DNA of 37,232 bases, taken from positions 1-37,232 of the forward strand of contig CAIRHD010000169.1 of assembly GCA_903878265.1 (NCBI GenBank), given 5' to 3'. The notes below the pieces were generated by a model. The model saw nothing but the letters and a program-made list of their open reading frames with translations. It was not told where the DNA came from and ran no database searches. The translations under genes were made by a program, and so were the position numbers. Below are positions 9,996 to 31,994 of the stretch, piece after piece; positions within the stretch are counted from its first letter, which is position 1, and each line of letters opens with the position of its first letter. Origin of the DNA: an uncultured Bacteroidales bacterium (GTDB taxonomy: Bacteria > Bacteroidota > Bacteroidia > Bacteroidales > UBA4417).

Positions 9996-10036
9996 CAGCA
10001 TAAGAAAAGTTGATTTGTAATACAGCAGCAACAGCC

Positions 10037-13000
10037 GTGATAAAAAAAAAGATTGTCAGATTATTTTATAATGCATTACTGTATTCAGTCTTTGCTATTG
10101 TTTGCCTTCCATATTGCGCTTTTACACAGACGTTTAACCCAATTTCCGATTCATATATCCACGATGCGAACCCGACTGTTAATTATGGAACTTCGGTGGA
10201 TTTATTGGTAAAAAAAGGTACTTCTACCAATTTTCGTAAAGCTTTTATCAAGTTTGATCTTTCATCAATTTCCAATAATATTATTTCCAGTGCTGTTGTC
10301 AGGCTGTATGCTACAAGCAGTGTTGCAATTTCAATGAACTTGTATCAGGTTTCGGATGCGTGGACTGAAACAGGGATTACCTGGGGAAATGCTCCTGCAG
10401 AAGGTGCGATGGTTGCCACAACATCTATATTGGCAGCACCCGGGTATTATAATTGGGATATAACTTCATATATACAAAGCCAGTTAGCAGTTAATGATAA
10501 AATAATCAGCATTGTTGTTTTCTCGGCATCAGTCAGTTCGTCAACAATAAATTTCAGCAGTAACAATGCTTTGGCAAACCGTCCCGAACTTGTCATTTCA
10601 TATAATCAAACCGCACCTTTGGCTCCTGCCAACTTATCTGCAACAACAGTCTCGAGTAGTGAAGTTGGTTTAACATGGCAAGACAATTCGGATGATGAAA
10701 CCGGATTTAAAATTGAGCGCAAAACTGCCAATTCAGCATTTTCGGAAATTGCCACTTCCGGACCAAATACAAACAGCTATACTAATATCGGGCTAACCCC
10801 TTCAACAACTTATATATACAGGGTTTTTGCTTACAATGCCTCAGGAAATTCGTCCTATTCCAATCAGGATTCGGCTACAACTGCAAATATTGAACCCGTT
10901 GAGTACTATATAGATGCAATTAATGGCAACGATGGCAACAACGGCCTGACTCCTTCAACTGCCTGGAAAACACTTGCCAAAGTGAATGCCACTACTTTTG
11001 GCCCCAGCAATAAAATTTTATTCAAAGCCGGTGGCGTCTGGGTTGGGAGGTTGTATCCGAAAGGATCAGGAATATCGGGAAACCCGATTGTGATTGACAT
11101 GTATGGTACAGGTAACAAACCACTTATTGATGGAAATGGACTGACCGGAACAGGGGTTGTTTACCTCTACAATCAGCAATATTGGGAAATCAATAACCTC
11201 GAAATTACCGACAATGCGTCTTCAGGAGGTGATAGAAGAGGAGTTCGTATTGAAGCCGAGAATTACGGCACTGCAAACCACATTTATTTAAAAAATCTTA
11301 ATATACACAATATTAAAGGCTCAGTAGGTCAAAATCGGAGCGATAAACGTACCGGTGGGATAGGTTTTGGTATTGTGGATGTTTCAACACAGGAAACCCA
11401 TTTTAACGACATACTTGTCGAAAATTGCGTGATAACAAGCTGCGAGAACCAGGGAATTATAACAGAATGCGTTACAGATGATGGTTTTGATCCGTATTCA
11501 GCTGAATGGAACTCCATGAAGATTACAAATGCAGTTATACGCAACAACACAATTTCTGTTATTTCAAAAAATGCAATGATTATCCGGCTGTTCGAAGGTG
11601 GAGTTATCGAAAACAATGTTTGTTTCAATACAGCAAACGGCATTTCGGGAAACACGATTTTTTCAGCTGCCTGCTCAGGCACCGTTTTTCAGTACAACGA
11701 AGGATACGACAACAATTCGCCCGATGCTGACGGAAGTATGTATGATGCCGACCTTCGTTCGCCGAACACGTATTGGCAATACAGTTATAGCCATGATAAT
11801 GCCCATGGGCTTTTTTGGACCTGCACAGTGCAAGCCGATGCAAATGTGGTTTGCCGGTATAACATCAGCCAGAACGATCAGGGGATAATTTTCTGTATAA
11901 ACTATCCGGTTACTTCTGTGCGCATTTATAACAATACTGTATATATTCCTTCAACCCTTTCACCCATTATAATATCGGAGCGGAACAATGGCGGAAGCGG
12001 GTCAAGGATATATACTTTTTACAATAACCTTATTTACAATCAAAGCTCAACAGCAAGCTACGACTGGACTTCAGGATATAGCCGCACAATAGACTATAAT
12101 TGTTTTTATGGTGTACATCCTTCAACCGAACCTGCTGACCCGCACAAAGTAACCACCGATCCAAAACTGGTAAATGCGGGAAGCGGCGGAATAGGAATCA
12201 ATTCTGTGGGCGGGTACAAACTGCAATCGGGTTCGTCGTGCATAAATAAAGGAAAAGCAATTTCGGATAATGGTGGCAGGGATTATTGGGGAAATCCACT
12301 TTATAATGGATTGGCCGATATCGGTGTGAACGAATACACCCTTCCACCGGTTGCGCCAACAAACCTGAGTGCAACAGTAATTTTGCCTGCACAAATCAGC
12401 CTTGCCTGGACCGACAATTCTGCAAACGAAACAGGGTTCAGGGTTGAGCGAAAAGCTGATGGCGGGGTTTTTGTGGAAATTGCGGTCGTTGGCCCAAACA
12501 TAACCAACTTTATCAATACAGGGATTTCTGCATCGGTGCAATATACCTATCGTGTTGCAGCGTACAATGCTTCAGGCAATTCGGCTTATACAAATGAAGC
12601 GTCAGCAAACATTTTGCAAAATAAAACCCTGATTGTTAATTTATTGCTCGAAGGGCTTTACCGTGGCCCTGGTACAATGCGGAAGGCTCAGGGTAGTTCA
12701 GGAAACCAATTTTCAGGAGCTGTTGCCGACCAGATTTCGATTGAATTGCATGAAGGGACAAATTATAGCAACCTGGTTTATTCAGTCAATAACATTGACC
12801 TCGATACAAATGGAATTGCAACAATTACTATTCCAAGCATTTATAATGGGAATTACTATGTCGTGATAAAACACAGGAATAGCATTGCAGTTGTAAGCAA
12901 CACGTCAAAATCATTCACCGAAAGCACCATTACCCATAATTTCGATTCACCAGCCAAAGTTTATGGCGGTAACCTTCGTTTGATGCCTAATGGTGGATAC

Positions 13001-13195
13001 GCCATTTTTTGTGGCGATATTAACCAGGATGGATCGATTAACATTGGCGATATTAACAGTATAACAAACGATACTCTTGTATTTGCAACAGGATATATGC
13101 CAAGTGATGCAAATGGGGATAGTAAAGTTGATGCACTTGATTTAATACTTGTCGATAATAATGCCACACTATTTGTATCTGTTGCCCATCCTTGA
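10037..13195 (+). CDS. secreted DNRLRE / FN3 / parallel beta-helix protein with dockerin-like C-terminus
   Basis: The product is about 1052 residues; numbers below count from an upstream TTG at 10010. The order is: signal peptide (~11-39), DNRLRE-type domain (~40-200), fibronectin type III (~203-292), a right-handed parallel beta-helix (~297-775) starting with Y-Y-I-D-A-I-N-G-N-D-G-N-N-G, a second FN3 (~780-868), a beta-sandwich module (~872-1000) and two EF-hand-like calcium loops as in dockerins (D-I-N-Q-D-G-S-I-N-I-G-D and D-A-N-G-D-S-K-V-D-A-L-D, ~1003-1044). The helix fold is typical of polysaccharide lyases and some hydrolases, but I cannot identify catalytic residues. There is no T9SS type A tail. 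No in-frame ATG exists near the signal peptide: the start must be TTG 10010 or, better, GTG 10037, followed by a lysine run. The C-terminal module is shared with the next gene. Confidence 0.82.
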   Translation: MIKKKIVRLFYNALLYSVFAIVCLPYCAFTQTFNPISDSYIHDANPTVNYGTSVDLLVKKGTSTNFRKAFIKFDLSSISNNIISSAVVRLYATSSVAISMNLYQVSDAWTETGITWGNAPAEGAMVATTSILAAPGYYNWDITSYIQSQLAVNDKIISIVVFSASVSSSTINFSSNNALANRPELVISYNQTAPLAPANLSATTVSSSEVGLTWQDNSDDETGFKIERKTANSAFSEIATSGPNTNSYTNIGLTPSTTYIYRVFAYNASGNSSYSNQDSATTANIEPVEYYIDAINGNDGNNGLTPSTAWKTLAKVNATTFGPSNKILFKAGGVWVGRLYPKGSGISGNPIVIDMYGTGNKPLIDGNGLTGTGVVYLYNQQYWEINNLEITDNASSGGDRRGVRIEAENYGTANHIYLKNLNIHNIKGSVGQNRSDKRTGGIGFGIVDVSTQETHFNDILVENCVITSCENQGIITECVTDDGFDPYSAEWNSMKITNAVIRNNTISVISKNAMIIRLFEGGVIENNVCFNTANGISGNTIFSAACSGTVFQYNEGYDNNSPDADGSMYDADLRSPNTYWQYSYSHDNAHGLFWTCTVQADANVVCRYNISQNDQGIIFCINYPVTSVRIYNNTVYIPSTLSPIIISERNNGGSGSRIYTFYNNLIYNQSSTASYDWTSGYSRTIDYNCFYGVHPSTEPADPHKVTTDPKLVNAGSGGIGINSVGGYKLQSGSSCINKGKAISDNGGRDYWGNPLYNGLADIGVNEYTLPPVAPTNLSATVILPAQISLAWTDNSANETGFRVERKADGGVFVEIAVVGPNITNFINTGISASVQYTYRVAAYNASGNSAYTNEASANILQNKTLIVNLLLEGLYRGPGTMRKAQGSSGNQFSGAVADQISIELHEGTNYSNLVYSVNNIDLDTNGIATITIPSIYNGNYYVVIKHRNSIAVVSNTSKSFTESTITHNFDSPAKVYGGNLRLMPNGGYAIFCGDINQDGSINIGDINSITNDTLVFATGYMPSDANGDSKVDALDLILVDNNATLFVSVAHP

Positions 13196-13402: not shown

Positions 13403-16400
13403 ATGGCAAATTCTGTACAAATGAAAAATAATTTTCAATCCAATACGATGAGCAAAACTGTTTTCAAAGTAAAAACCAACCTTTTGCTACTTCCGGCAAT
13501 TATAATCCTGATGGCTTTTGGCTTTAATGGAAAAGGATACGGGCAAACAACCCTGTTTCAATTTACATTTGAAAATGTGCTGTCTCCTGTTATCGACAAT
13601 TCAGTTGGTACACCTTCTTTTACATCATTGGGGGTTGGGGGACTCAATTTCAATGCCACCACGCCCTGTGAAGGCACGGTTATGTATCAGGGATCCTATT
13701 GGTCAATTGGTGATTATTACCAGTTTACAGTTAATACAACTGGCTTTACAGGTTTGACATTCACTTATTGTGAGCGCGGTTCCAATGTATTGATGGGGAC
13801 CTTTCTTTTAAGGGTTAGTCCCGATGGCAGCAATTGGACAACATTGTTAACTGATTATGTACCTGATCTTGTCAATACAACCAAAACAACACCTACCTTT
13901 CCTGCTTCATGCGAAAATGCTCCAACCGTTCATATCCAGATATTAAAAACGACTGAACCTGGTTCAACAGGCCGAAGCTTAAGGCTCGATAATGCAATCC
14001 TAACAGGGACACAAGAAACGTCGCCTCCGGTTGCAAATTTTGTACCTTCTAATGGTTCTACCGGTGTTTTGGTAAACGTTAACCCAACAATAACATTTGA
14101 TGAACCTGTACAAAACTTAGATGGTACACCAATTACAAATAGCAATGTTGCTTCCTTAATAACTTTTAAAACTTCTAATGTTTCGGGTACAGATGTGCCA
14201 TTTGCAGCAAGCATTGATGCTACCGGCAAAATCATTACTGTTACCCCATCGGCCTTGATGAGTTTTTCACAGCAATATTATTTGGCTGTTGCAGCAGTTG
14301 AAGATGTTTCGGGCAACGAAGCAGGGGCTCAAAGTACCTCATTTACAACTATGGCCAATACCGTAAGTAACGATGCTACTCTAAGTGATTTAAAGGTTAA
14401 CGGGATTTCTGTTGCTGGTTTTGCTCCAACAATATTCAACTATCAGGTTGTCTTAAACTATGGCGCCCCCGTGGTTCCAGCAACTACTGCCACCCCAACT
14501 TTTGGGTTAGCCACTGTTTTTATTACACCTACATCCACACTTCCCGGAACAACCACAATTCTCGTTACAGCACAGGATGGCACAACCCAATTGACCTATA
14601 CAGTCGAATTTATTTATGCTCCTGCCAGTACAAATTCGGCACTATCATACATCAAGTGGCTTCCCAACGGGTTCGACCCAGTGAAACAAAACATCAGGGT
14701 CATGGGATTTTCCCCAACTACTTTTAATTATTCTATTGAGGTCCCAAGTGAAACCAATTCACTTGTGGTGGATGCCGAACCTGATTTTGTAATACCCGCT
14801 GCAGGTTGCCCTCCGGCAACTTATGTCGTAACACAACCCCTTAACCTTACAGGTTCAACTGCCGAAAGAACCGCAACCGTAGTTTGTACTGCTCAGGATG
14901 GTACAAGCGTTTCTACGTACTATGTAACGTTCAGTAAAGCTTCAGCAACAAACTTTTTTGTAATAAAAGAAGGGTTTAACGCAATGCCTCCTCCTGGATG
15001 GGCAAATACCACCAATGTTGGAAGCTCAGCCACCAATGGCATAGGTTTTTATGGATCATTGAGCGGTTATCTAACCCCAAAATTCAAATGGTTGTCGCCA
15101 ACCGATGGCGGAACCCTTGTAACTCCAGCCTGTAATGGAGCTACAACCCTGGAGTTTTTCATTAAAGTGCTGGATAAGAACCCGGCAAGCAACCTCCATT
15201 TATATATCGAAAAATCGTATGATAGCACTAACTGGGTATTGGTAAGCCAGGATCCAATGCCTTTAACCGTCAGCACTACCCAATGGCATCAGGTAATGCT
15301 GCCAGTAAACGATATCAGCCCGCAGATTTATTTCCGCTTCAGGGCAACGGCAACAACCGGTGACAATTCAACTGGTTTATTTTATCTGGACGATGTGAGC
15401 ATAACAGCCAATGCTGCTTTCGATGCATCCTTAAGTGATCTTAAAGTGAATGGGACTACTGTAAGTGGTTTTAACCCTGAAGTATTAGATTATGATGTTG
15501 TGCTTCCAATTGGCACTATCGTTATACCTGCAGTTACTGCTACTGCTTTACAACCTGCTGCAACGGTGCTTGTTACAAATGCATCTGCACTGCCGGGAAC
15601 AACTTCTGTTCTGGTAACAGCCCCTGATGGAATAACCGTTAGAACCTACCATGTAATCTTTTCGTATGCTTTGGAAGCACCTTTTAACCTAACGGCGAAT
15701 ATAGCATCAGCTACTCAAAACAATTTGAACTGGTCGGATAATAATGTATCGGAAACAGGATTTAAAATTGAAAGAAAACCCGATAACGGATTATTTGCAG
15801 TTGTGGGAACCGAAGGTGCAAATGTTGCAGCAAGTGTAAATACTATGCCCGGACTTGATCCCAATGTTTTTATTCCTGCCGACCGCTTTACGAATGTAAC
15901 TGTTACTTCAGGCGTGAAATTCGCCGATGTTATCAATTACAAAGGTGTGCCAACCCCACTTTACCTTGATGTATATGAACCCACGGGTGATAATACTCTG
16001 GGGAGGCCTGTAATTATCTGGATACATGGCGGAGGTTTCAGGACAGATTCATACAGGACACAGGGTTACATTGTTGATTACAGCACACGTTTTGCAAAAC
16101 GCGGGTATGTTTGTATGTCGATTGATTACAGGTTACGGTCAGGAACTGATATGCCAACCCAGGCTTCCGAATTTCCTGCATTACAGGATGCAGCCAGGGA
16201 TGCTAACGCAGCAATAAGTTGGATAAAGGCGAATGCTGCCACATATAATATCGATCCAAACCTGATTTTTATTGCCGGAGGTTCTGCCGGAGGACGTACA
16301 GCTCAAACGGTTTGCCAGTTCGATGGCCCGGATCCTACTGCGGTTTATCCTCCCGAGAATCAATATGTTTCTACTCTTTGGAATAAAACAGGTTTAATTG

Positions 16401-17359
16401 CCAACGCAACCCTTTGGGGTGGCCTAGAACCCGAGATGAGGGGATGGGTTTATCCAAGTCCGCCGTATTCAACAGCTAATTACCTGCAGGCAACCGATGT
16501 GCCGACAGTTTTGGTTCATGGCGATGCTGATGTTACCATTTTGCCTCAAAACAGTATTGATTTGCATAATGCGCTGCTTGCGGCCGGTGTAACCAGCGAA
16601 TTGCATATTATTCCCGGTGCTACGCATAGCTGTCTGGGCAAAGAAACCGAAATTTCGGCATGGTTGGCCACGTTTTTCGCACAGGAATGGAGCAAGGTCA
16701 ATGCAAAGCCTAAATCGTATGCGTATCGTATTTGTGCTTACAATGCTTCAGGTAATTCACCTTACTCCAATGAGGTAACAGTTAGCCGCACACTTAACCT
16801 CAACTTGTTTTTACAAGGGCTTTACACCGGAAGCGGTGCTATGCGCAAGGCACAAGGAAATTCGGGCAATCAGTTTTCTGGTAATACTGCCGATCAGTTA
16901 ACAGTTGAGTTGCACAATTCATCAACTTATGGCACTGTAATTCATTCAATTCCTAATGTAAATCTCAGTGTAACAGGCTCAGCAACTGTTTCAATTCCTG
17001 CTTCATTAGGCGGTTCGTACTATGTAACTATCAAACACCGTAACAGCATAGCAACCGTAAGCGCTTCCCCGGTTTCTTTTGCTTCGGGTATAACTGGTTA
17101 TGCATTTGATCTTCCAGCAAAAGCGTTTGGCAATAAACTTTTCCCTCTGGGATCGGGCATTTATGCCATTTATGGTGGCGATACCAATCAGGATGGAAAA
17201 GTTGACAATGCAGATATGACTTCCGTATCCAGCAATTCAAATGCTTTTGTTACCGGATACATTGCTACAGATGTGAATGGCGATGGGTTGATTGATGCCG
17301 CTGATATGATAATAGTGGACAATAATTCCAGTAATTTTATAACTGGCAGTACTCCATGA
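13403..17359 (+). CDS. giant secreted protein with an esterase domain inserted in an FN3 domain and dockerin-like C-terminus
   Basis: The product has 1318 residues: signal peptide (to ~48, ending G-K-G-Y-G-Q), a beta-sandwich domain (~50-203), SbsA-type Ig-like domain (~208-316), cadherin-like beta-sandwich modules (~322-405, ~410-512, ~672-756; each with L-S-D-L-K-V-N-G or similar), and a choice-of-anchor/MAM-like domain (~515-670). Then comes half an FN3 (759-821), an alpha/beta-hydrolase domain (~822-1100), the other half of the FN3 (1104-1127), a beta-sandwich (~1129-1255) and two dockerin-like calcium loops (~1260-1302). The hydrolase has the oxyanion motif H-G-G-G (875-878), nucleophile S961 in G-G-S-A-G, acid D1043 in H-G-D-A-D and H1075, so it should be an active carboxylesterase, perhaps removing acetyl or other esters from glycans. 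Internal ATGs at 13421 and 13448 are possible starts. Confidence 0.87.
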   Translation: MANSVQMKNNFQSNTMSKTVFKVKTNLLLLPAIIILMAFGFNGKGYGQTTLFQFTFENVLSPVIDNSVGTPSFTSLGVGGLNFNATTPCEGTVMYQGSYWSIGDYYQFTVNTTGFTGLTFTYCERGSNVLMGTFLLRVSPDGSNWTTLLTDYVPDLVNTTKTTPTFPASCENAPTVHIQILKTTEPGSTGRSLRLDNAILTGTQETSPPVANFVPSNGSTGVLVNVNPTITFDEPVQNLDGTPITNSNVASLITFKTSNVSGTDVPFAASIDATGKIITVTPSALMSFSQQYYLAVAAVEDVSGNEAGAQSTSFTTMANTVSNDATLSDLKVNGISVAGFAPTIFNYQVVLNYGAPVVPATTATPTFGLATVFITPTSTLPGTTTILVTAQDGTTQLTYTVEFIYAPASTNSALSYIKWLPNGFDPVKQNIRVMGFSPTTFNYSIEVPSETNSLVVDAEPDFVIPAAGCPPATYVVTQPLNLTGSTAERTATVVCTAQDGTSVSTYYVTFSKASATNFFVIKEGFNAMPPPGWANTTNVGSSATNGIGFYGSLSGYLTPKFKWLSPTDGGTLVTPACNGATTLEFFIKVLDKNPASNLHLYIEKSYDSTNWVLVSQDPMPLTVSTTQWHQVMLPVNDISPQIYFRFRATATTGDNSTGLFYLDDVSITANAAFDASLSDLKVNGTTVSGFNPEVLDYDVVLPIGTIVIPAVTATALQPAATVLVTNASALPGTTSVLVTAPDGITVRTYHVIFSYALEAPFNLTANIASATQNNLNWSDNNVSETGFKIERKPDNGLFAVVGTEGANVAASVNTMPGLDPNVFIPADRFTNVTVTSGVKFADVINYKGVPTPLYLDVYEPTGDNTLGRPVIIWIHGGGFRTDSYRTQGYIVDYSTRFAKRGYVCMSIDYRLRSGTDMPTQASEFPALQDAARDANAAISWIKANAATYNIDPNLIFIAGGSAGGRTAQTVCQFDGPDPTAVYPPENQYVSTLWNKTGLIANATLWGGLEPEMRGWVYPSPPYSTANYLQATDVPTVLVHGDADVTILPQNSIDLHNALLAAGVTSELHIIPGATHSCLGKETEISAWLATFFAQEWSKVNAKPKSYAYRICAYNASGNSPYSNEVTVSRTLNLNLFLQGLYTGSGAMRKAQGNSGNQFSGNTADQLTVELHNSSTYGTVIHSIPNVNLSVTGSATVSIPASLGGSYYVTIKHRNSIATVSASPVSFASGITGYAFDLPAKAFGNKLFPLGSGIYAIYGGDTNQDGKVDNADMTSVSSNSNAFVTGYIATDVNGDGLIDAADMIIVDNNSSNFITGSTP

Positions 17360-17454
17360 TAAACATGAATAAGTGAGGGTTAATTGTAAATACTGAAATC
17401 AATTTCTTGTAATTCAGATTTCAAAATTCGATTTGTTACAAATTCGAGTAGTTA

Positions 17455-17496
17455 AAAAAGTAAATTTGCATGTAAAAAAGTGCAAATTTACTTTTT
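17455..17496. promoter_or_regulatory. perfect 16-bp inverted repeat upstream of the SurA-like gene
   Basis: AAAAAGTAAATTTGCA (17455-17470) and its exact reverse complement (17481-17496) flank a 10-nt spacer. The left arm contains TAAATTTG (17461-17468), a match to the -7 consensus on the plus strand, and the right arm gives the same element on the minus strand. It could be an operator over a promoter, or a bidirectional stem-loop (A-run before, T-run at the end of the right arm) acting as a terminator for the gene ending at 17359. Confidence 0.5.
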
Positions 17497-17567
17497 GCTT
17501 AATGGACAACTCCCTTCAGGTGAATAGCAAGGCAAGAATTTCCTTTCTCTCTGGATTACAAAGTTTT

Positions 17568-18635
17568 ATGAAATTTCCTAAAACACTTTCTCTTATTGCT
17601 GCATTGCTGTTTATTGCTGTAATTCCGCTACAGGCACAAACTTTACCTGAAGACACATCTGTTGTGGCGATTATTAATGGCAACCCTGTTACCACCAGGG
17701 AATTTATGCTGTTTGCAAATAAAGAAAGATCGGAAGTAATCCGGTTTTTTCGTTCCAATTATGGCTGCGAATATGACAATACATTCTGGACAAAATCTTT
17801 TGATGGAAAATCTCCCCCTGAACTCCTGAAAGAGAGAACACTCGATACGCTCATAAAAATTAAAGTACAGCAGGCATGTGCAAAGGATTTTGGCCTCGTT
17901 TCCGATATCAGTTATTCTGGATTTCTGGAGGCGTTGAAGAACGAGAACCTCCGAAGGCTGCAAGCGAAAAACAGCAACAAAGTAATTTATGGGCCGGTAC
18001 AGTATAGCGAGGAAGTGTATTTCAATTATACGTTTACCAACATGGTCGAAGAACTGAAAGCTGTCCTGGCCGAAAAAGTGTTCCCTATTACAAAGGATAC
18101 GCTTCTTCAAATTTACGAAACAGAAAAGGATCGCATGTTTGGAAATGGATATTGCACAAAAATCCGATCTGTCGGAATAAAATATAAAACCGGATCAGAT
18201 GGCAGCGAGGAGCATAAAATCAGTTATTTGGATTTGATTGCAATTAATGATAGCATCAACAGAAACAAATCCTATATAGCCACGGCAAAAGAAGTATATA
18301 AGTACAATCCTTATTTTTCTTTGGTAATTGAAGATATTGTGTTCAACGATACAATTTCTAATTCCGGGGAGGATAACAACTTTTTAGAAAGGGTTAAAGA
18401 AATGACATCGAAATTATCCGTAGCCGAAAGCAGCCCTGTGTTGGAATCTCCCCGTTCAGCTTATATTTTTACAATATTAAACAAACAATCCTTGGGTTAT
18501 CGGAGTTTTGATAATTGCAAACGGGCAATCAGGGAGAAAACAACCGACCAATTGTATAACAATTATATATACAAGTTAAGTACAAAAGCCAGTGTTGAAA
18601 TAAACATAAATGTGTATAAAATGATACGCTTTTGA
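17568..18635 (+). CDS. periplasmic SurA/PrsA-like protein lacking a clear PPIase domain
   Basis: The product is 355 residues from the ATG at 17568, which begins a clean signal peptide (M-K-F-P-K-T-L-S-L-I to P-L-Q-A-Q). Just after it comes V-V-A-I-I-N-G-N-P-V-T-T-R-E-F, the usual opening of SurA/PrsA/parvulin-type chaperones, followed by a helical region (~50-190). The last ~30 residues (D-Q-L-Y-N-N-Y-I-Y-K-L, then A-S-V-E-I-N) resemble the SurA C-terminal helix and strand. No intact parvulin domain is evident in the middle. It is probably a periplasmic chaperone for outer-membrane or exported proteins. It follows three giant exported proteins, so a dedicated helper role is plausible but inferred. 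Longer starts (17433, 17502) are disfavoured: the 17433 frame runs through an inverted repeat. Confidence 0.72.
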   Translation: MKFPKTLSLIAALLFIAVIPLQAQTLPEDTSVVAIINGNPVTTREFMLFANKERSEVIRFFRSNYGCEYDNTFWTKSFDGKSPPELLKERTLDTLIKIKVQQACAKDFGLVSDISYSGFLEALKNENLRRLQAKNSNKVIYGPVQYSEEVYFNYTFTNMVEELKAVLAEKVFPITKDTLLQIYETEKDRMFGNGYCTKIRSVGIKYKTGSDGSEEHKISYLDLIAINDSINRNKSYIATAKEVYKYNPYFSLVIEDIVFNDTISNSGEDNNFLERVKEMTSKLSVAESSPVLESPRSAYIFTILNKQSLGYRSFDNCKRAIREKTTDQLYNNYIYKLSTKASVEININVYKMIRF

Positions 18636-18891: not shown

Positions 18892-20382
18892 TTAAGATGC
18901 AACCATAATCGTTTGTATAGCCTGTGGGTTTATCTGCACTTCAACAGAACGATCGCCGAGAGAAAGTTTTATGTTTTTTGATTCTGAATTTATGTTCAAA
19001 ATTACTACAGCAATGGATCCATCAGGGTTCTGTGCTGCGGTTATCATTAACGATGGGTCAGGGTTTTCGAATCCAATGCGCACTGAACCAGGCCGGATGT
19101 ATTTGCTAAAATGCGCCATGGTATAATACAGAGGTGTAAAATAGACTTCGTCCTTCTCCGGATCAACAATTACGGGCGCAACACACCAGTTTTTATACCA
19201 ATTGGGACCACCTTGTTTGTCTAAAACCATGTTCCAATCCACCCAGCCATCCACCCAGTTATTCATACAGCCGATAATATCCCTTGCATAACGATAAACA
19301 GGAACATATTTTGGATGCAGCTTTTTCTGATCCGCCGGCGCCCAATCCCATCCCCAATCGGTAGCTTCTTCACTCCAATACCATTTATCATCTTGCCAAT
19401 GTGGAACTTCCGAATCAACACATCCTTCGGTATGGATTAAATACTTGCCAGTAGCCATATTGTGCGTTAAATTTAATGATTCGGGAAACCAATCGACAGT
19501 GCTCGCATACCAGTGAATGGCAAAACCATCGAAATATTTTGATGACGAATCGTCTTTGTAAATCACTTTTGCCCATTGTTCCAGTTCCTCGCCACGATTT
19601 TGGTCATACGCCAATACTTTTACACTATGCCCATCGGCTTTTAGTTTGTGGCCGAGATGATTATTTACAAAATCCACCATTTCTTCGGGGGAATAGATCA
19701 TGCTTTTCCAATTGCCACCATTCCCAAGAGGTTCATTCTCCACAGTTAATCCCCAAATATCAATGCCTTCCTTTTTATATTCGGAAATATATTTTGAAAA
19801 AAACAAAGCCCAGGTATCCCTGTATTCGGGAAGCAATTTACCACCTACCCATTTACCGTTGTCCTTCATCCACGGAGGCGCGGTCCACGGCGAAGCTATA
19901 ATTTTAAACCCGTCTTTTGAGTAGGCCATTGCTTCTTTTATCATCGGAATTAAATCGTCCCGATCCTCGTCAATTGAAAAATGTTCTAATAGCTTGTCAC
20001 CTTTTACTGGTGCGTAGGAATAATTCCCCAACGAAAAATCACAGGAATTTATATGGGTACGTGTCAAGGAGTATTTGGCTCCCTTTTCCCCAAAATAAGC
20101 GTCCAAAATCGAATCACGGTTTTTCTTGCTTAATTTGTTTAACAAATATGCAGACGCTTCGGTAAACGACCCCCCAAACCCGGTAATGGTTTGAAATTTT
20201 GTGTCCGGTAACAATTTAACGTGTACTGCCTCGCTGCCGGGAGCAAATTCAGTTATCCTTTTGAGTTTATTTCCATTTGCGGAAGTCTCAAACACTTCTA
20301 CCGACAGCTTGTTTTGCTTTACGTTGCAACTCATAAAAATGATTAAAAGTGAAATGGCCAAGGAGAATTTTAATCTTTTCAT
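18892..20382 (-). CDS. GH30 glycosidase lipoprotein (likely beta-1,6-glucanase or glucosidase)
   Basis: The 496-residue protein has a lipoprotein signal peptide (F-M-S-C, lipidated C19) and a GH30 (beta/alpha)8 barrel with its side beta-domain. The family opening G-F-G-G-S-F-T-E-A (~68-76) is present, with acid/base E217 in T-V-E-N-E-P and nucleophile E319 in I-H-T-E-G. The motif S-P-W-T-A-P-P-W-M-K (~164-173) is also characteristic. GH30 members of this kind in Bacteroidota cut beta-1,6-glucan or exo-acting beta-glucosides; in this locus the likely target is the beta-1,6 branches of laminarin-type glucan. The residues after C19 (N-V-K-Q) lack the acidic surface-export signal seen in some Bacteroidota lipoproteins, so a periplasmic location is possible. 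It is the last gene of the minus-strand block, 125 nt after GH81. Confidence 0.92.
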   Translation of the reverse strand: MKRLKFSLAISLLIIFMSCNVKQNKLSVEVFETSANGNKLKRITEFAPGSEAVHVKLLPDTKFQTITGFGGSFTEASAYLLNKLSKKNRDSILDAYFGEKGAKYSLTRTHINSCDFSLGNYSYAPVKGDKLLEHFSIDEDRDDLIPMIKEAMAYSKDGFKIIASPWTAPPWMKDNGKWVGGKLLPEYRDTWALFFSKYISEYKKEGIDIWGLTVENEPLGNGGNWKSMIYSPEEMVDFVNNHLGHKLKADGHSVKVLAYDQNRGEELEQWAKVIYKDDSSSKYFDGFAIHWYASTVDWFPESLNLTHNMATGKYLIHTEGCVDSEVPHWQDDKWYWSEEATDWGWDWAPADQKKLHPKYVPVYRYARDIIGCMNNWVDGWVDWNMVLDKQGGPNWYKNWCVAPVIVDPEKDEVYFTPLYYTMAHFSKYIRPGSVRIGFENPDPSLMITAAQNPDGSIAVVILNINSESKNIKLSLGDRSVEVQINPQAIQTIMVAS

Positions 20383-20507
20383 TTTGTCTTTTTTAATTCT
20401 TTATTGATTTAGCAGCCTGTTATCAAACCAGCAAACGTGGCGGGATTTGTCATGAAATGGTGCAATAGAATTACAAGCGATTTGCTGAATGCAAATTTGA
20501 TTGAAAT

Positions 20508-23500
20508 CTATTGTTTTACAATCTTACAAACCTTAATCCCCTTTTTCCCTTCAATCTTAATTGTATAAATCCCTTTCTGCAAATTGCCGATATTCACCTT
20601 ATTATCTAAAGCATTTGCATTAAATACACTTCTACCGGTAATGTCGAAAATGGAAACAGCAACAGTTTCAGATTTTGTATTTAGGAACAAAATATCGGAA
20701 ACGGGATTTGGGTAAATTATAAAACCATCATCTTCAATATCCTCAATTCCAGTGCTAACAGATTGCGTAACTGTAACGATTTTTGATGTTGCCCCTGCCG
20801 AAACTGTAATTATAGCTGTTCTGATAGCTGAAGAAGGATTTTCTTCCGCCGTTAATGTAATTGTCGCACTCCCCGAGCCCGATACCGTGCTGGCAGTTAA
20901 CCATGTTTGACTGCTTGAAACAGTCCAATTGGTATTGGAAGATATCCCGAAAGTTTTTTTGCTGTTTGCCTCCGCCGCAATAGTCAATGTGTCAGTTGAA
21001 ACGGTTAAGATGTTAGCACCGGCATTAGTCAAAAAGATATCGTCGAAAAGAAAAGTGGAGTTCAGCGAACCATTGCCCACAGTACCAAAATCGAACATAA
21101 ATACCAACTTGTAGTAAACATTGGATGCTGTGCCCGAAAAATTCCATTGTAAAGTTTCCCATGCATTTGCAAGCGTTGTATTTACTGATTTTTCAGTAGA
21201 GGGAGCATCACCCTCAAGTTTAAAAAGAACTGGAACTCCTTTTCTGGGCGAATACACTTTCATCGAAATGGTGGTGGTATTCGTAAAATCGATTGAATTA
21301 TCTAAAGACAAATAGCTGCCTGCCCATATTTCTCCACCATTCCTGATAATTTTAGCAACATTTGCACTCGTGTTTATTCCCGTTTGGTAAGGATTTGCAA
21401 TTACTTCAGCTACCCCTCCGCTAAAATCGGTAAAGCTATATGGCCCAGTTTCAAAATCAATAGGAAATACAATTGGTAACGGGACTGCACTTTGTGTTAC
21501 AGTAATTGTTTTTGCAACCAAACCTACGCCTGTAACAGTTACCGTGGCTATTCTGGGGCTTGTGGTGCTTGTATTTGCATCAGCGGTTAGGGTTATTTCT
21601 GTGCTGCCCGTACCGTAGTTGCTGCTTATGGCGAGCCAAGTTTGATCGCTTGCAACAGTCCAACCAACATTCGATTTAATAGCGAATTTTTTTATACTGT
21701 TGGCTGTGTAACCAATACTCAAACTGTCTGCCGAAAGAACCAGGTAATTATATCCACCTACATCCTGTGTTACAGCAATTGTTTGAGTACCTGTTCCGTT
21801 TCCTGATACCGTTACATTTGCGTTTCTTATTGATGTGGATGTGTTTTCCTGAGCAGTTACTGTTAAACTTGTATTGCCGAATCCAGACGAATTACTTACA
21901 GCTAACCAATCCTGATTACTTGTTGCTGTCCAACTAACATTTGAAATAATATCAAACGCATTTGTGCTGTTCTCCATCATTGGCACAGTCAGTGAGTTGG
22001 TCGAAACGCTTAACGCAGGATTTGCATTACCCGTGCGTGTGAACGAAATTCTTCCAATATTGAAACCAGCCATATCGAACACGAGCCTTACAACATGGAT
22101 GCCGGCGGGTAAAATAACTCCTGTAACAGCTTTTGTGGCCCAAGTATTCCAACTGGAAGTGGAAACCATAGTAATATCGCCACAAACGCGTAACCCGTCC
22201 ACCTGTATATGAAAAGGCCCGCCACCCGAAGCATTCCCCGATTGATATCTAACCGATAAATCATAAGTGCCAGATTGTGTAATATTTACAGTATATTCCA
22301 ACCATTCACCACTTTCTATCCAACTTACTGTATTACCTTCGCCTGCGCTAGGGCCGGCATCTACATATTCCGGGGCGCGAAAAGTGCCTGCCGAGTTTGC
22401 TGCTGTTGCATCATAATATGAAATTGATTGACCAACTCCGCCTTCATAATAATCATAATTTCCGGCTTCGATTGGCTGCGCAGGAATTGAAACAGATGTT
22501 CCACTGTATGGAAGTTGCGAACCAACTACTACGGATACTACATTTGACAACTGGATATTTGTTCCCACATACACTTTTACATAAAACTGATGGATTTTCG
22601 CAACCAAATTAGATGCCAAAACGGAGTAAGGAGCTGTAGTTGATGTTCCTAATAAGGTTAACCCATCAAAAAACTCAACTTTTGTAATTCCGGTTCCCAT
22701 GGTGGTTGCCATAAGCGTAACGCTGCCATTTGTTGGCACTTGCAAGGCAGACGAAGTAAGCGAAGCGGTTGCATTTGCATCTTTACTTGTTTTCATCGTC
22801 CTGGCGGGAACTGTCATGGAAAATCCATCGGAATATATGACCGTAATTTCACTATTGCTATAATTATGTGCAACATAAGTTTTATTGCCCGCTTTGTTAA
22901 ACACCATAGCAATCGGATAATTGGATGTAATTGATACATCTGCCTGTCCAGCCCCATTTAAACTATGCAGCCAATGGTAGGTTTGTGCATCCGAACAACC
23001 CGATTTTACTGGGTAATCGGGATAATTGTTGTAAAGGGAAAGTGCTGTTTCGGGGTCAGCTAATGCCAGAAAAGACCAATAGACATCTAACCAGAGATTT
23101 ACATTGGTATTGGGTACTGTAAGTACTGTGGTTTTTGCTTTCATATCAGCCCAGAGTTTCTGGACATAAGTTTTATTATATCCCAAATAAAGGGAAGCCC
23201 CCGTCATGGGAAACATTTCAATCCCATAGGCAGCGGCAACATCACCAGTCCAGAAAGTTCCAATATCATAACCATCGCCCCACACGCGCGAACTCATCAT
23301 TGGCGTATAGGTTGCAGAAAAATTACGTTCGCTCATATCAAACCAGTACTCCTCAATTCCTGTTTGTTCGGTTGTATATAAATAAATTCCTAAGTCGCGA
23401 ATGGCAGTGTTTCCGGTAAGTTCACCCCAGTTTATTAGCGAGGCGTTAAAGTTCATTGCTTCCGAAGAAGACTCCTGATTGTTTCCATGTGGTTCGTTAT

Positions 23501-25037
23501 TTAGCAAACCCGAAGCAAAGCTATGCCCTGCATAAGCATTGAAATTCCTCAAAAATGGAAACCTTGCATCAGTTTTGTCCCAGTTGGCAGCGTCTTTAAC
23601 CAGCAAATCTACCATTGGCCCCCAGTTGGCAGCCCATCCGGGTTGAAATTGCTCAATGGCCACAGCTGCACTTATAAAATATCCATAATGGAAATGATGG
23701 TCATTAAGATTTGCATCAGCATAATAACCAGCCGGATATCCGATGAGTGTACTCCATGTGCTGTTGTACATGAACAAGAACGCATTTTCGCCGGCATCAG
23801 CTTTAAACCAATTTTCTAACCGGGTTTTCACGGTAGCAATAATCTGGTCACGCGCTTCGGTGTAGCCTACCTGATCGGCAATCTTGGCAACCTGTATCAA
23901 CCGGTTCATTGCCATGCCCTCATTATAGGAATCTGTCCATGTGTCAAGTCCACTTCCTTTTATCATATCTATTTTGGCATTCAAAGCACCAGGATTAAAA
24001 CCGGCACTGTATTTCGAAAGGTTTGGAAGGGTTGACAGAATGCCGTGAAATTTATTTTCAACTACAAAAGTATTGGAAGCCAACATTTTCATTGTGCCTC
24101 GCGATGTGGTATAATAATATGAACCGGGTTGAGCTGACGATGTGCTTAAATGCGCCCACTGATGTGGCAATAATCCCAATAGGACAGTGGTTCCTGTTCC
24201 TTCTTTCGGGTCGGGAGTAACAGTAAATGTTGTTTGCACCGTTGATGTGGCATCGTCGTACATCCAGTTCACCGTAGTGATTGAAGGAAAAACATAAGCA
24301 AATTGTTTATAGTAGTTTGCAGCGGTTGAGGCTGATATATCGCGGGGCAACATGGCTATTGAGTAATAGTTTTTCCCTGCAAGTGTCGAAGTGTAGGTTG
24401 TACCAGATTGCGTCCATGTTGAACCTACCGGTGCGTAAACAGCAAAGTTAGAGCCGGCGAGTGAATTTGTTACCAAAAGCATTTCGCTTTGAACAGAAAC
24501 GGTGCCATTATTTACGATTACCGAAGCGACATCCGAACTGCCCTTTATACAATAAACAAAAGGCATCCCCATTCCCGTGGTGGCATTAAAGCTATGGCCA
24601 TTACTACTCCATGCTGCTGTAACCGTCCAATCGGAGTAATCGGAAACCGTTGGAAACGACCCGCTCAAACCAGTTACACCCACAATAATCGGTTGTTCAA
24701 AACCCATTGGCTGCCGGGTATCAATGGAACCAGTGCCCAAAAAAGTATAACCAACAGCCAAGCCTTCGGCAATACCTCGCATCGAAAGGGGATAGTTGTA
24801 CAAATTGGCGCCATCGTAAGTAAGCAGGCCACTCCACCAATCGCTTGATACTCTAGGTTTTGTTGTGGCAAGACCTGAAACCCTCGGAGTCCCATTCGGA
24901 TTTAGATTTCTTCCAGCAGCATCTGGCGGCGGCAACTGTGTGGTATAGCTTCCGCTTCCCACAGTAACGATTTGACTAAACCCTTGAACATTCGCAATAA
25001 AGAGAATGCTTAAAACGAGACCTTTTAGTTTTCTCAT
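20508..25037 (-). CDS. GH81 endo-beta-1,3-glucanase with CBM6, BACON and T9SS domains
   Basis: The 1509-residue exported enzyme has a signal peptide (~1-21) and a GH81 catalytic region (~25-750) with the hallmark motifs L-N-D-H-H-F-H-Y-G-Y-F (acid D446) and N-N-Q-E-S-S-S-E-A (E522/E526). These are followed by an Ig-like domain (~755-838), CBM6 (~843-1002), two BACON domains (~1006-1092, ~1097-1184), a beta-sandwich carbohydrate-binding-like module (~1187-1338), a third BACON (~1342-1428) and a T9SS type A sorting tail (~1437-1509, I-Y-P-N-P and K-G-I-Y-T-I-K-I). It should hydrolyse beta-1,3-glucan chains at the cell surface or after release. The many binding modules suggest insoluble or gelled glucan. 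The binding-like module is shared with the partial gene at the right edge of the window. Confidence 0.95.
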   Translation of the reverse strand: MRKLKGLVLSILFIANVQGFSQIVTVGSGSYTTQLPPPDAAGRNLNPNGTPRVSGLATTKPRVSSDWWSGLLTYDGANLYNYPLSMRGIAEGLAVGYTFLGTGSIDTRQPMGFEQPIIVGVTGLSGSFPTVSDYSDWTVTAAWSSNGHSFNATTGMGMPFVYCIKGSSDVASVIVNNGTVSVQSEMLLVTNSLAGSNFAVYAPVGSTWTQSGTTYTSTLAGKNYYSIAMLPRDISASTAANYYKQFAYVFPSITTVNWMYDDATSTVQTTFTVTPDPKEGTGTTVLLGLLPHQWAHLSTSSAQPGSYYYTTSRGTMKMLASNTFVVENKFHGILSTLPNLSKYSAGFNPGALNAKIDMIKGSGLDTWTDSYNEGMAMNRLIQVAKIADQVGYTEARDQIIATVKTRLENWFKADAGENAFLFMYNSTWSTLIGYPAGYYADANLNDHHFHYGYFISAAVAIEQFQPGWAANWGPMVDLLVKDAANWDKTDARFPFLRNFNAYAGHSFASGLLNNEPHGNNQESSSEAMNFNASLINWGELTGNTAIRDLGIYLYTTEQTGIEEYWFDMSERNFSATYTPMMSSRVWGDGYDIGTFWTGDVAAAYGIEMFPMTGASLYLGYNKTYVQKLWADMKAKTTVLTVPNTNVNLWLDVYWSFLALADPETALSLYNNYPDYPVKSGCSDAQTYHWLHSLNGAGQADVSITSNYPIAMVFNKAGNKTYVAHNYSNSEITVIYSDGFSMTVPARTMKTSKDANATASLTSSALQVPTNGSVTLMATTMGTGITKVEFFDGLTLLGTSTTAPYSVLASNLVAKIHQFYVKVYVGTNIQLSNVVSVVVGSQLPYSGTSVSIPAQPIEAGNYDYYEGGVGQSISYYDATAANSAGTFRAPEYVDAGPSAGEGNTVSWIESGEWLEYTVNITQSGTYDLSVRYQSGNASGGGPFHIQVDGLRVCGDITMVSTSSWNTWATKAVTGVILPAGIHVVRLVFDMAGFNIGRISFTRTGNANPALSVSTNSLTVPMMENSTNAFDIISNVSWTATSNQDWLAVSNSSGFGNTSLTVTAQENTSTSIRNANVTVSGNGTGTQTIAVTQDVGGYNYLVLSADSLSIGYTANSIKKFAIKSNVGWTVASDQTWLAISSNYGTGSTEITLTADANTSTTSPRIATVTVTGVGLVAKTITVTQSAVPLPIVFPIDFETGPYSFTDFSGGVAEVIANPYQTGINTSANVAKIIRNGGEIWAGSYLSLDNSIDFTNTTTISMKVYSPRKGVPVLFKLEGDAPSTEKSVNTTLANAWETLQWNFSGTASNVYYKLVFMFDFGTVGNGSLNSTFLFDDIFLTNAGANILTVSTDTLTIAAEANSKKTFGISSNTNWTVSSSQTWLTASTVSGSGSATITLTAEENPSSAIRTAIITVSAGATSKIVTVTQSVSTGIEDIEDDGFIIYPNPVSDILFLNTKSETVAVSIFDITGRSVFNANALDNKVNIGNLQKGIYTIKIEGKKGIKVCKIVKQ

Positions 25038-25220
25038 ATTTTTTTCAATTACGCTAATTAATAATAAACAACCTAACCTGTTTTTCTGGCCCAGTGATTA
25101 CAAAATATTGTATTCCAGCATCTTGTCTGATGTGTGTTTTACAATCATTAAACATATATCCCCATCATTCCAATTATCAAACTTTCGGGCGATAAACAAA
25201 TTTATATCCTTAATCAAGAG

Positions 25221-25350
25221 TCCACTCCGAAAAGTCTTTTTTTGCCTCAAAGGCTCTGAGCTGCACAAAGTTTATTATATTAATCAACAACAGTTTGTCC
25301 TCTTGCTGCCTTAATGGTTTCCTTTGTTTTTGGGCTCTAGGAGCTGCCTC
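25221..25350. repeat. dispersed intergenic palindromic repeat, copy C
   Basis: The segment starts TCCACTCCGAAAAGTC and carries TTTTTGCCTCAAAGGCTC, GCACAAAGTTTATTATATTAA and, on the right side, CTTTGTTTTTGGGCTC. It aligns along its whole length with copy D and its left half with copy A. It fills the left part of the upstream region of the GH81 gene; the remaining 25038-25220 shows nothing I can name. Confidence 0.6.
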
Positions 25351-25363
25351 TATCATCAATGTT

Positions 25364-26725
25364 TTAGCTTTGATTTTCTCTTTCTCGCAGCGCGCCCAAC
25401 TCCTTTTTCATGATATCAGTGGTTTTAGAATCAATTTTATAAAATATCATGAACAAGGCGCACGACATGTATAAGATACCAGGGATAACAGAAACCAATA
25501 ATTTTATTCCAGTAATAGCTGTGTCGTTTTGAACAACATTAGGCGCAAAACTGGAAGCAGCTAAAATCCAGCCTGCTATGGCAGCACCAATTCCCCAACC
25601 CGCTTTTTGTGCAAACACAGCAGCCGAAAAGTACAAGCCCGTAGCCCGGCGGCCTGTGGTCCATTCGCCATAATCGGCTGAATCGGCAATCATAGTCCAT
25701 AGCAAAGGAACGGCAGGTGCATAAGCCATTTTGGCAATTATGTTAAACACATAAATGGTAGTCAAGTCATTTATTCCAGCAATGTAAATCAGTATAAAAA
25801 ACACACCTGAAATCAAGGAACTGCCGATGAATACGTTTTTATTCCCAAACCTTTTGGCCAATGGTTTTGATAATGGCAGGGCCACGATAAGCGCAACCGT
25901 TCCAATTACATTGAAAAGCTGAACATTGTTTTCGCGCCCGAGGTAATATTTGAAATAATAGGCAATGGCAGCATTTTGCATGGCAAACATGATGAAAGAA
26001 ATAATTCCTACCAAGGCCAAAATGATCCATGCTTTGTTTTGAAAAAGGTTTTTAATATCTTCCTTTAGTGAATTTTCCTGGGCTTTAGGTGGCTGAACCC
26101 GTTCTTTAGTTGTTTTAAATGTGATAAAGAAAAATATGAGGCTTAAGCCTGCAAACAGAAATACGGTGTATTGAAATCCTTGTGCTTTATCGCCACCACC
26201 AAAAAATTCGGCTAAGGTAAGTGCCAGGCCAGTAACAACAAATTGACCGGTGAAGCCTGCAATAAAACGATAGGTGTTCAATCCGGCACGTTCATAAGTA
26301 TCGTCAGTCATCACCGCTCCAAGTGCGGAATAAGGCAGGTTGATAAATGCATAAGCTGTCATTAGCAGCACGTATGTTGCCCCTGCATAAACTATCTTTC
26401 CAGCTTCGCCAAAGTTGGGAGTTGTAAAGGTGAGAATAGCCAAAATGGCATACGGTATGGCTCCGAACAAAATATATGGGCGGAATTTCCCCCAGCGGGT
26501 ATTCGTCCTGTCGGAAACTATACCAATTACAGGGTCAATGGCCATATCCCAGAAACGGGCAACCAACATAATAGTTCCGGCAGCGGCTGCAGAAATCCCA
26601 TACACATCGGTATAAAAAAACAAGAGCCAGAATCCAACCATATCCCACACAAAGTGCGAAGCTGTATCACCTAAACTATACCCGATTTTTTCTTTTACTG
26701 ATAATTTTAGTGCTGTCATTTCCAT
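25364..26725 (-). CDS. GPH-family (MelB-like) sugar:cation symporter
   Basis: The 453-residue membrane protein has about 12 predicted spans and the glycoside-pentoside-hexuronide family signature: F-W-D-M-A-I-D-P-V-I-G near residues 58-68, then S-D-R-T-N-T-R-W-G-K-F-R-P-Y (71-84). A conserved inter-lobe loop (T-K-E-R) precedes the C-terminal six spans. These symporters bring mono- or oligosaccharides across the inner membrane with Na+ or H+. It lies 264 nt downstream of the GH2-type secreted enzyme and upstream of GH81, so a beta-glucoside or short glucan oligosaccharide is the likely load. The real start may be M1 or M3. Confidence 0.92.
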   Translation of the reverse strand: MEMTALKLSVKEKIGYSLGDTASHFVWDMVGFWLLFFYTDVYGISAAAAGTIMLVARFWDMAIDPVIGIVSDRTNTRWGKFRPYILFGAIPYAILAILTFTTPNFGEAGKIVYAGATYVLLMTAYAFINLPYSALGAVMTDDTYERAGLNTYRFIAGFTGQFVVTGLALTLAEFFGGGDKAQGFQYTVFLFAGLSLIFFFITFKTTKERVQPPKAQENSLKEDIKNLFQNKAWIILALVGIISFIMFAMQNAAIAYYFKYYLGRENNVQLFNVIGTVALIVALPLSKPLAKRFGNKNVFIGSSLISGVFFILIYIAGINDLTTIYVFNIIAKMAYAPAVPLLWTMIADSADYGEWTTGRRATGLYFSAAVFAQKAGWGIGAAIAGWILAASSFAPNVVQNDTAITGIKLLVSVIPGILYMSCALFMIFYKIDSKTTDIMKKELGALRERENQS

Positions 26726-26989
26726 TTTATTAAGCTTTTATTGTTGGGAAAAATTGTTGGTATTTGTCTAAAAGTTGTACACATGGCTCATTCAGCAAAT
26801 GTATTAAATATCACTCCACCATGCCAAAGGATTCTCAAGTTAGCAGGGTTCGTTACTGTTGGTTGCGCATCAAGAAATTGCGTTTGATTGCCCATCATTT
26901 GAACTTACTTAACAATAATTTTCTTCCGGAATGGAAGTCATTATGCCGCTAAGGCGAACCTTTCAATTCATTTAACCATCCAAAGCAGC

Positions 26990-28264
26990 TTAATTGCCCT
27001 TGCTTTTTAAAACTTCCTTTGTTACCTGAATATTCGAAAAATACGCATTTATCGAATCGGCTGTCACGTTATTGGCATAAGGATTTAGTTTATGAACTTG
27101 TTGCAAAGCATAATATGCAGCACGAGGATATAACTGATAATGTCCTCGTTCGTCAGTTTTGCCTTTTGCGCATATACCGTACCATTCCTCGTTCATATTG
27201 TTTTCTCCTGGCACATAATCGTTCTGATAACCACCGTTCACCCAGGATGCATAAGTATCGTGAACGTCTAAATTTTCTGTTTGTTTATACTTCCACCAAC
27301 CATCGCTAAACATAAAAGTAAACCCACCGATACAATTTCCCGCTTTGCCTAAACCAGCAGCATTTTGATAGATTTCTTTCCAATTGTTTGTCAGATAATA
27401 TGCCTGCGATTGCTGGTCTTCTTCGTTGCTAACAGCATTAAAAGCATCGGAACCAAACTCGGTAAACATGATTGGTTTTTGCAACACTTCTTTTGTTTTT
27501 TGAAATGCGTCGCCAAACGAAACTCCCCGATACATATTAACTCCCAGAATATCAATATCTTTACATTCCTCGGCAATAATATCGAGGAAAAGCAAATCGC
27601 CATTACATATTGCTACCGGATGAGATTTGTCTAAAGTTTTTATTGCCAAAGCCGCTTCGTTGAACAGTTTATACAATGCTTTGGCACCAGCGGTCGATTT
27701 TCGTTGGTCAATAGGAATATCTTCCGTTTCGGCCCCTCGCCAGAAAAGCCCGTAATTGTTCTCGTTACCTAATAAATACAGGAGCAAACCCGGTGTATTG
27801 TTATATTCTTTAACAATATCGGTTACTTCTTTCAGGAGAAGGTCATGAACACGGACATCAGAATATTCGGTATTCGCAACCCATGCGCCATTTAATGTTA
27901 AGCCATATCTCCCGAAAGAATGGTTTATCATGGTATAGATGCCATATTTTTCGTAAATATACGTAATCCACTTCGGTTGGATGCCGGTATAAACACGAAT
28001 GGCGTTTACCCCCATGTTTTTCAACATAAGCATTTCTGTATCAAGTGCAGCTTTAATAAAATCATCTGATTGCTGCCATAAACTGTATGAGTAATTAGTG
28101 CCAACTGGAAAGTAATCCCAATTCATGCCATTGATTATCAAATTTTCCCCATTGACATTTAGTTTAACTCCTTCATTATTAGTAATAACTGTAACTTTGT
28201 GCGCCTGCGCGAAAACAGTTGTTATAATCAGGGAAAGAGCAAAAGCCAATATAAATTGTTTCAT
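26990..28264 (-). CDS. secreted TIM-barrel glycosidase of GH2/GH5-like type
   Basis: The 424-residue protein has a signal peptide (~1-19, ending V-F-A-Q) and a single (beta/alpha)8 barrel without the GH2 jelly-roll domains. Motifs typical of clan GH-A are visible: I-N-G-M-N-W-D-Y (~44-51), N-A-I-R-V-Y-T (~87-93), acid/base E168 in L-L-G-N-E-N-N and nucleophile E269 in M-F-T-E-F-G-S-D-A-F. Such proteins are usually labelled as GH2 TIM-barrel-domain proteins; the exact family and substrate are uncertain. Given its neighbours I infer a periplasmic beta-glucosidase or exo-glucanase acting on oligosaccharides released by GH81 and GH30, before uptake by the adjacent symporter. A copy of the dispersed palindrome lies just upstream. 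Confidence 0.82.
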   Translation of the reverse strand: MKQFILAFALSLIITTVFAQAHKVTVITNNEGVKLNVNGENLIINGMNWDYFPVGTNYSYSLWQQSDDFIKAALDTEMLMLKNMGVNAIRVYTGIQPKWITYIYEKYGIYTMINHSFGRYGLTLNGAWVANTEYSDVRVHDLLLKEVTDIVKEYNNTPGLLLYLLGNENNYGLFWRGAETEDIPIDQRKSTAGAKALYKLFNEAALAIKTLDKSHPVAICNGDLLFLDIIAEECKDIDILGVNMYRGVSFGDAFQKTKEVLQKPIMFTEFGSDAFNAVSNEEDQQSQAYYLTNNWKEIYQNAAGLGKAGNCIGGFTFMFSDGWWKYKQTENLDVHDTYASWVNGGYQNDYVPGENNMNEEWYGICAKGKTDERGHYQLYPRAAYYALQQVHKLNPYANNVTADSINAYFSNIQVTKEVLKSKGN

Positions 28265-28287
28265 GATTCCATTATATTAAGTTTGGG

Positions 28288-28439: not shown

Positions 28440-28467
28440 TTGATTGAAAGGTTTTTTTTAATTTGAA

Positions 28468-29358: not shown

Positions 29359-29402
29359 TTAATTAAAATTAGAATTTGATTAAATTAGAAAGTACCTTTC
29401 GA

Positions 29403-30845: not shown

Positions 30846-30913
30846 ACATTAAATTTTTGACGATTAGTATTAAAATTAATTAGAGTCTGCCCGTAATGGC
30901 AAGTTTTATTTCT

Positions 30914-31984: not shown

Positions 31985-31994
31985 TCAGTCAAAT

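Follow-up and report, generated by a model that had tools for sequence, protein, structure and literature searches.

The closest precedent that we have found in print for the protein considered here is BoPDA of Bacteroides ovatus, in which, according to excerpts of a report (PMC11713874), a CE4 metal-binding deacetylase lies inside a chitin-binding-like carbohydrate-binding module (CBM; segments 63–85 and 381–441). A fibronectin type III (FN3) domain can be interrupted too: FnIII-2 of the insulin receptor is split in sequence by an insert domain, as an excerpted account has it (PMC10560217). Our own subject is a 1318-residue protein encoded on the forward strand (13,403..17,359) of a 37,232-nucleotide stretch of DNA from an uncultured Bacteroidales bacterium (GenBank assembly GCA_903878265.1, contig CAIRHD010000169.1, positions 1 to 37,232), and this whole stretch is what we call the window throughout. 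In that protein an esterase-like alpha/beta-hydrolase interrupts an FN3 and is followed by the missing end of the same FN3. Judged from its sequence and those of its relatives, the nested esterase is real and conserved, and we think it very probable that this is an exported glycan esterase and that a whole hydrolase of the BD-FAE type was inserted, once and ancestrally, in the E-F loop of an FN3 whose halves fold together (strand names and loop label follow the customary nomenclature).

As far as the excerpted description of BoPDA goes, the likeness is one of plan, in that a carbohydrate esterase domain is inserted in a beta-sandwich and segments of the parent sandwich flank it on both sides. 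The differences lie in the parts and in the setting, with a CE4 domain in a CBM and a capsule locus there, whereas here a serine alpha/beta-hydrolase sits in a late-split FN3 (at the E-F loop) of a multidomain protein with other beta-domains. With FnIII-2 of the insulin receptor, again as excerpted, the 1318-residue protein has in common an FN3 interrupted by an inserted segment. Our limited search of the open-licence literature turned up no published case of an alpha/beta-hydrolase within an FN3, and the initial annotation of this DNA, which had called the arrangement unusual, was fair in doing so, with the proviso that BoPDA, with its CE4 domain inserted in a beta-sandwich, stands as a precedent. 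The insert domain of the insulin receptor is non-enzymatic, and in bacterial carbohydrate enzymes FN3s are commonly regarded as spacers; a catalytic domain carried in an FN3 would show such a spacer turning into a two-point mount, and the E-F loop would give protein engineers a natural insertion site.

An FN3 in two pieces

The predicted reading frame of 1318 residues is indeed present, and by Pfam it comprises Big_5, a cadherin-like repeat, the FN3 with its esterase, and a tail; its N-terminus, read by eye, suggests that the protein is probably exported. The first FN3 half, strands A to E, occupies residues 759–821 (15,677..15,865), the insert of about 282 residues follows at 822–1103 (15,866..16,711), and strands F and G make up the second half at 1104–1127 (16,712..16,783). 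The late interruption that had been proposed holds good, with the break now assigned to the E-F loop, and the nested hydrolase stands as well, its span being better given as starting at 15,866 than at the 15,857 originally chosen. In the contiguous protein Pfam fn3 matches residues 759–821 only (profile 2–59 of 84, 18.6 bits against a cut-off of 25). Split FN3s can, in other words, escape domain annotation, one sub-threshold half being all that Pfam sees here.

The gene immediately upstream (10,010..13,195, forward strand; 1061 residues) offers a comparison, with two uninterrupted FN3s found by Pfam fn3 at 10,622..10,867 and 12,353..12,604. It had been said to carry the same FN3 in uninterrupted form; the uninterrupted domains are there, but they are homologues and not the same copy, since their first parts are 43–45% identical to the split FN3. 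From K1104 onward the sequence of the split protein resembles the final two strands of these intact domains. A local FN3 hidden Markov model (HMM) built from the two of them finds two complementary pieces in all seven split proteins known to us, running from model position 1/2 to 55/56 and then from 61/63 to 82/86 (1–56 and 63–83 in the window protein), with a gap of about 280–290 residues in between and a second piece that is strong in some proteins (E 3e-7 to 3e-4).

Joining the halves of the window protein raises the Pfam fn3 score to 32.9 bits over profile 2–83 of 84, above the cut-off of 25, compared with 17.8 bits for the first half alone and 17.4 for contiguous sequence of the same length; the C half (29 residues) has no Pfam fn3 match of its own. 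Joined halves exceed the cut-off in five of the six proteins tried, this test and the following one omitting the near copy L010. In a junction scan, every position after the first half was tried as its completion, and in the window protein position 1104 is the best among 468, with a score of 87.1 bits; the first half by itself scores 50.3, and 500 shuffles do not exceed 69.9. The best completion site lies no more than one residue from the predicted one in all six proteins, and in each of them the score of the true C piece is unmatched by 500 shuffles. Four residues spread across both halves (W24, L65, Y355 and R356 in alignment numbering) are kept in 7/7 sequences. By sequence, this is a domain insertion in the usual sense: the insert is complete, and the parent is interrupted once and completed afterwards.

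Two other explanations were considered and rejected. Chance similarity of the C piece is ruled out by the HMM pieces, the joined scores and the junction scan, and an assembly artefact is ruled out because the split recurs in L010, a copy with 99% identity, and in five relatives that have diverged further. When Pfam fn3 was run over seven genomes it returned 314 matches; among the matches listed, three end at profile position 59, and these are the known nested proteins G787, G788 and G789. Of the stretches with fn3 matches to the C half only, four (L057–L060) were also inspected, and the local FN3 HMM found nothing there.

Relatives and a probable single origin

A scan of genome contigs gave nine loci, six of which hold the entire FN3-esterase-FN3 arrangement (71–99% identity) and three of which hold distant esterases (27–31%). 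The six come from five Bacteroidales/Bacteroidetes metagenome-assembled genomes (MAGs) and one Flavobacteriaceae MAG, the most similar, L010, being the near copy of the window protein. What surrounds the arrangement varies: a dockerin-like end is common to L010 and L011, L012–L014 have a different sequence and a type IX secretion system (T9SS) tail, and the 525-residue Flavobacteriaceae protein, L015, consists of barely more than a signal peptide (read by eye), the FN3 with its esterase and a T9SS tail. Across six rows (without L010) the two FN3 halves show nearly equal mean pairwise identities, 53% in the first and 52% in the second, whereas the esterase reaches 83%, so that the halves are alike and unlike the insert.

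A further comparison comes from a 969-residue paralogue (L061, 7636–10,542) that adjoins the gene of L011 and shares its N-terminal domains (68% over 466 residues) and its tail, with neither the esterase HMM nor the FN3 HMM finding a match in it. By eye, this paralogue also lacks the last cadherin-like repeat.

The nested gene occurs in 3 of the 16 genomes of its own family group (E 1e-20), in the same 3 among 393 genomes of an order sample (E 1e-60) and in 1 of 395 genomes of a class sample, its own (E 1e-35). Three of 43 genomes in the family of L013's genome have it, with one further match that is esterase only, as does one genome in a sample of 249 from the family to which L015's genome belongs, with two further matches that are esterase only. 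Building an esterase into an FN3 appears to be an unusual design, found in a small number of related bacteria. Scans of viral contigs gave no relative with alignment A1 and distant esterases only with A2 and A3; L022 matched its own two contigs only, and L016 none. These scans served to deepen the alignment used for structure prediction, which L022 alone of their loci entered. One open reading frame on an IMG/VR contig (L025, 24–4448) combines, by eye, a subtilase-like part, an esterase-like domain and cadherin-like repeats.

Stand-alone forms of the esterase help to define where the insert begins and ends. Two BD-FAE/Abhydrolase_3 paralogues in the same genome, L002 and L003, match the esterase HMM as the insert does but are not nested. 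In L003, L048, L049, L051 and L054 the esterase starts about 15 residues or fewer after the point where, by eye, the signal peptide ends; the stand-alone start corresponds to about the start of the insert, and the stand-alone proteins end, or carry other domains, where the C piece stands. By BLAST, the 13 stand-alone rows that we used are about 27–45% identical to the window esterase, the closest by score being L052 (33% over 269 residues). In a tree of these 13 and the seven nested esterases, from which the weak matches L004 and L026 and other viral esterases were left out, the nested forms all lie on one side of one branch (support 97/96), so that one insertion suffices. The nested arrangement, as first advanced, draws support from the scoring of joined halves, from six relatives, from the halves' shared lower conservation, from the points at which paralogues end and from a paralogue that lacks both halves along with the esterase.

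The inserted esterase

Pfam places BD-FAE (PF20434) on residues 855–968, with 100.7 bits against a cut-off of 26.8, which the six relatives also pass, and Abhydrolase_3 on residues 871–1077; up to E 0.1 it lists serine alpha/beta-hydrolase families for the insert region and no CE4 model. The catalytic residues named in the initial annotation are all located in the sequence and are invariant in 7/7 aligned proteins, namely an HGGG oxyanion motif at 875–878 (16,025..16,036), S961 as predicted nucleophile in GGSAGG, which starts at 959 (16,283..16,285), D1043 as predicted acid in HGDAD, with HGD at 1039 (16,529..16,531), and H1075, the predicted catalytic histidine, in GATHS, which starts at 1072 (16,625..16,627). 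The roles of this Ser-Asp-His triad and of the HGGG motif are predicted by analogy with known hydrolases. The enzyme probably deacylates a glycan or sugars, taking off acetyl groups or other acyl substituents.

In structure searches with the model described below, the best match in the Protein Data Bank (PDB) is Thermogutta Est2 (5aob; Z 21.9, rmsd 2.7, 221 aligned), whose fold is the same as that predicted for the insert but which is not nested, and which, with a target length of 278, aligns through its residue 277. Among the solved hydrolases listed, alignments start at model residue 69–85 and stop at 342–349, the latter corresponding to residues 1095–1102 of the protein.

Structure prediction

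Two AlphaFold2 (AF2) models were made, one from a 7-row alignment, with a mean predicted local distance difference test score (pLDDT) of 51.8, and one from an 11-row alignment, with a mean of 61.7. The second has strands at model residues 8–16, 19–25, 33–40, 46–52, 57–61, 352–361 and 364–375 (the last in two parts), the first five belonging to the first FN3 half, and these seven follow the strand order of an FN3. Blocks of the first half have pLDDT 78–89, except one of 68, and the last three blocks, F–G, have 84, 86 and 66; the linkers at 64–98 and 346–349, together with a stretch at 220–273, fall below 50. An FN3 and a hydrolase are the predicted folds. Structure prediction had been proposed as the check on whether the two pieces form one sandwich, and it does yield all seven FN3 strands; their pairing into a sandwich we infer, and the esterase part is of low confidence. 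Structure searches of the PDB returned hydrolases only and no FN3 rows, and because hydrolases fill the match lists this is no evidence against an FN3, nor is it evidence for one.

Weighing the explanations

By the explanation that we regard as very probable, a whole serine alpha/beta-hydrolase of the BD-FAE type would have been inserted once, in an ancestor, into the E-F loop of an FN3, both halves of which would still fold into one beta-sandwich with the hydrolase on that loop. Both ends of the hydrolase would therefore be anchored in the chain of beta-domains, in place of attachment by a single flexible linker, and such a mount might, as the initial annotation suggested, keep the active site in a fixed orientation on the scaffold. 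FN3 and esterase would from then on be kept and moved as a single unit, the exported protein would display the hydrolase on its FN3 loop, and the esterase would deacylate a glycan.

Several observations pull the other way. The second FN3 piece, taken alone, is weak in L012 (E 0.0026), L013 (0.038) and L015 (0.21), and the joined halves of L015 score 14.7 bits, under the Pfam fn3 cut-off. BLAST of the paralogue beside L011 also pairs part of the preceding domain with residue 1095 onward, an alignment that we discount as spurious, since that stretch is already aligned as part of the 68% match. The tree is rooted by midpoint alone and some of its outgroup branches are long. Both AF2 models are weak overall, with long hydrolase and first-linker stretches below pLDDT 50, and they give strands, not contacts between the FN3 halves.

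The last of these points touches a rival that accepts the FN3 origin of both halves and has them pair between molecules, by strand exchange, or stay apart, which would make the protein a dimer or its FN3 a degenerate one. Conservation of the halves at only about 53%, and the weak joined score of L015, speak for it, but W24, L65, Y355 and R356, which are spread over both halves, are kept in every protein, and most of both halves forms the better-predicted part of the second AF2 model. We regard this outcome as improbable. A chance junction, in which an esterase gene was fused in mid-FN3 to a copy of the upstream gene's tail, leaving the C piece as a remnant of that tail, has a similarly slim prospect. 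The end of the protein does resemble that of its neighbour, with 48% identity between residues 1106–1318, strands F–G included, and the corresponding end of the upstream protein; yet strands F–G are retained in L012–L014 and L015 despite the different sequence that follows the FN3 there, the first half is complemented to within one residue in 6/6 proteins, and the paralogue of L011 lacks both halves together. Least credible of all is that the C-terminal piece is an extra hydrolase hairpin that merely resembles an FN3, for although it comes directly after the last helix with no long linker, it matches the FN3 model in all seven proteins (weakly in L013 and L015), it stands where stand-alone paralogues end or carry other domains, and the idea that it belongs to the hydrolase is contradicted by the listed solved hydrolases, none of which aligns past model residue 342–349.

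Gene company and a possible substrate

The nested esterase also has to be seen in its genomic setting. The upstream gene encodes, in order, CBM96, the first intact FN3, a GH136-like (lacto-N-biosidase-like) beta-helix region (10,898..12,334, forward strand), the second intact FN3 and the same tail as the nested protein. In phmmer searches of the PDB, the beta-helix matches the solved lacto-N-biosidases 7v6m (E 1e-32) and LnbX (5gqc, E 4.7e-21). Downstream lies an LnbY-like gene, resembling a GH136 chaperone or subunit (17,433..18,635, forward strand; NCBIfam NF047894). The two thus recall the LnbX/LnbY pair, of which a review states, in an excerpted passage, that LnbX was without activity unless the adjacent gene was co-expressed (PMC8106489). 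Both, however, are far under the NCBIfam equivalog cut-offs, with 81.5 of 2500 bits for LnbX (upstream) and 58.9 of 400 for LnbY (downstream), so the substrate may differ or be new.

This company is kept elsewhere. In L010, L012, L013 and L014 the nested gene has a homologue of the beta-helix gene close by, and the genome of L011 has one on the same contig (68% over 859 residues); six of the seven genomes that carry the nested gene also have an LnbY-like gene, which in every case shares its contig. Across two family groups (16 + 43 = 59 genomes) 6 genomes have the nested gene and 7 an LnbY-like gene, with an overlap of 6, for which the hypergeometric probability of 1.6e-7 overstates the case because the genomes are related. 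Two genomes fit less well: a search of L015's genome (a 2.0-Mb MAG) gave no LnbY-like match, and G014 has an LnbY-like gene without a nested esterase, on a contig that ends inside the adjacent GH136-type gene, so that its first 161 residues alone are seen.

With GH136-like and LnbY-like genes on the same contig in six Bacteroidales-type genomes, the nested esterase is therefore suggested to be a glycan deacylase, after which the GH136-like enzyme with its LnbY-like partner would cut the deacylated glycan. More broadly, this gene company suggests an uncharacterised acylated-glycan pathway in uncultured Bacteroidota. A bolder proposal, which we put forward tentatively and would on balance bet against, is that FN3 and esterase form a portable cassette, moved from one extracellular multidomain protein to another and also between the Bacteroidales and the Flavobacteriaceae, and that they make up a functional unit with the GH136-like and LnbY-like proteins, acting on an acylated glycan that GH136 is not known to use. 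If this were true, the FN3 would be a carrier that holds its enzyme by both ends.

Other features of the contig

The tail shared by the nested protein (16,793..17,356) and its upstream neighbour (the end of 10,010..13,195) has dockerin-like repeats, one of which, at residues 1259–1307 (17,177..17,323, forward strand), scores 20.6 bits with Pfam Dockerin_1, slightly under the cut-off of 22.9. No T9SS signal is among the Pfam and NCBIfam matches of this tail. The genome itself has eight cohesin matches at E 0.01, most of them above the Pfam cut-off, and for that reason attachment of the tail-bearing proteins by a cohesin–dockerin type of contact is possible.

Further along, on the reverse strand, 18,892..36,389 holds a probable beta-1,3/1,6-glucan locus, with a GH30 (endo-1,6-glucanase-like), a GH81 with CBM6 and BACON domains, two MFS sugar transporters and a GH149 1,3-beta-glucan phosphorylase that scores 1699.7 bits against a cut-off of 1150.

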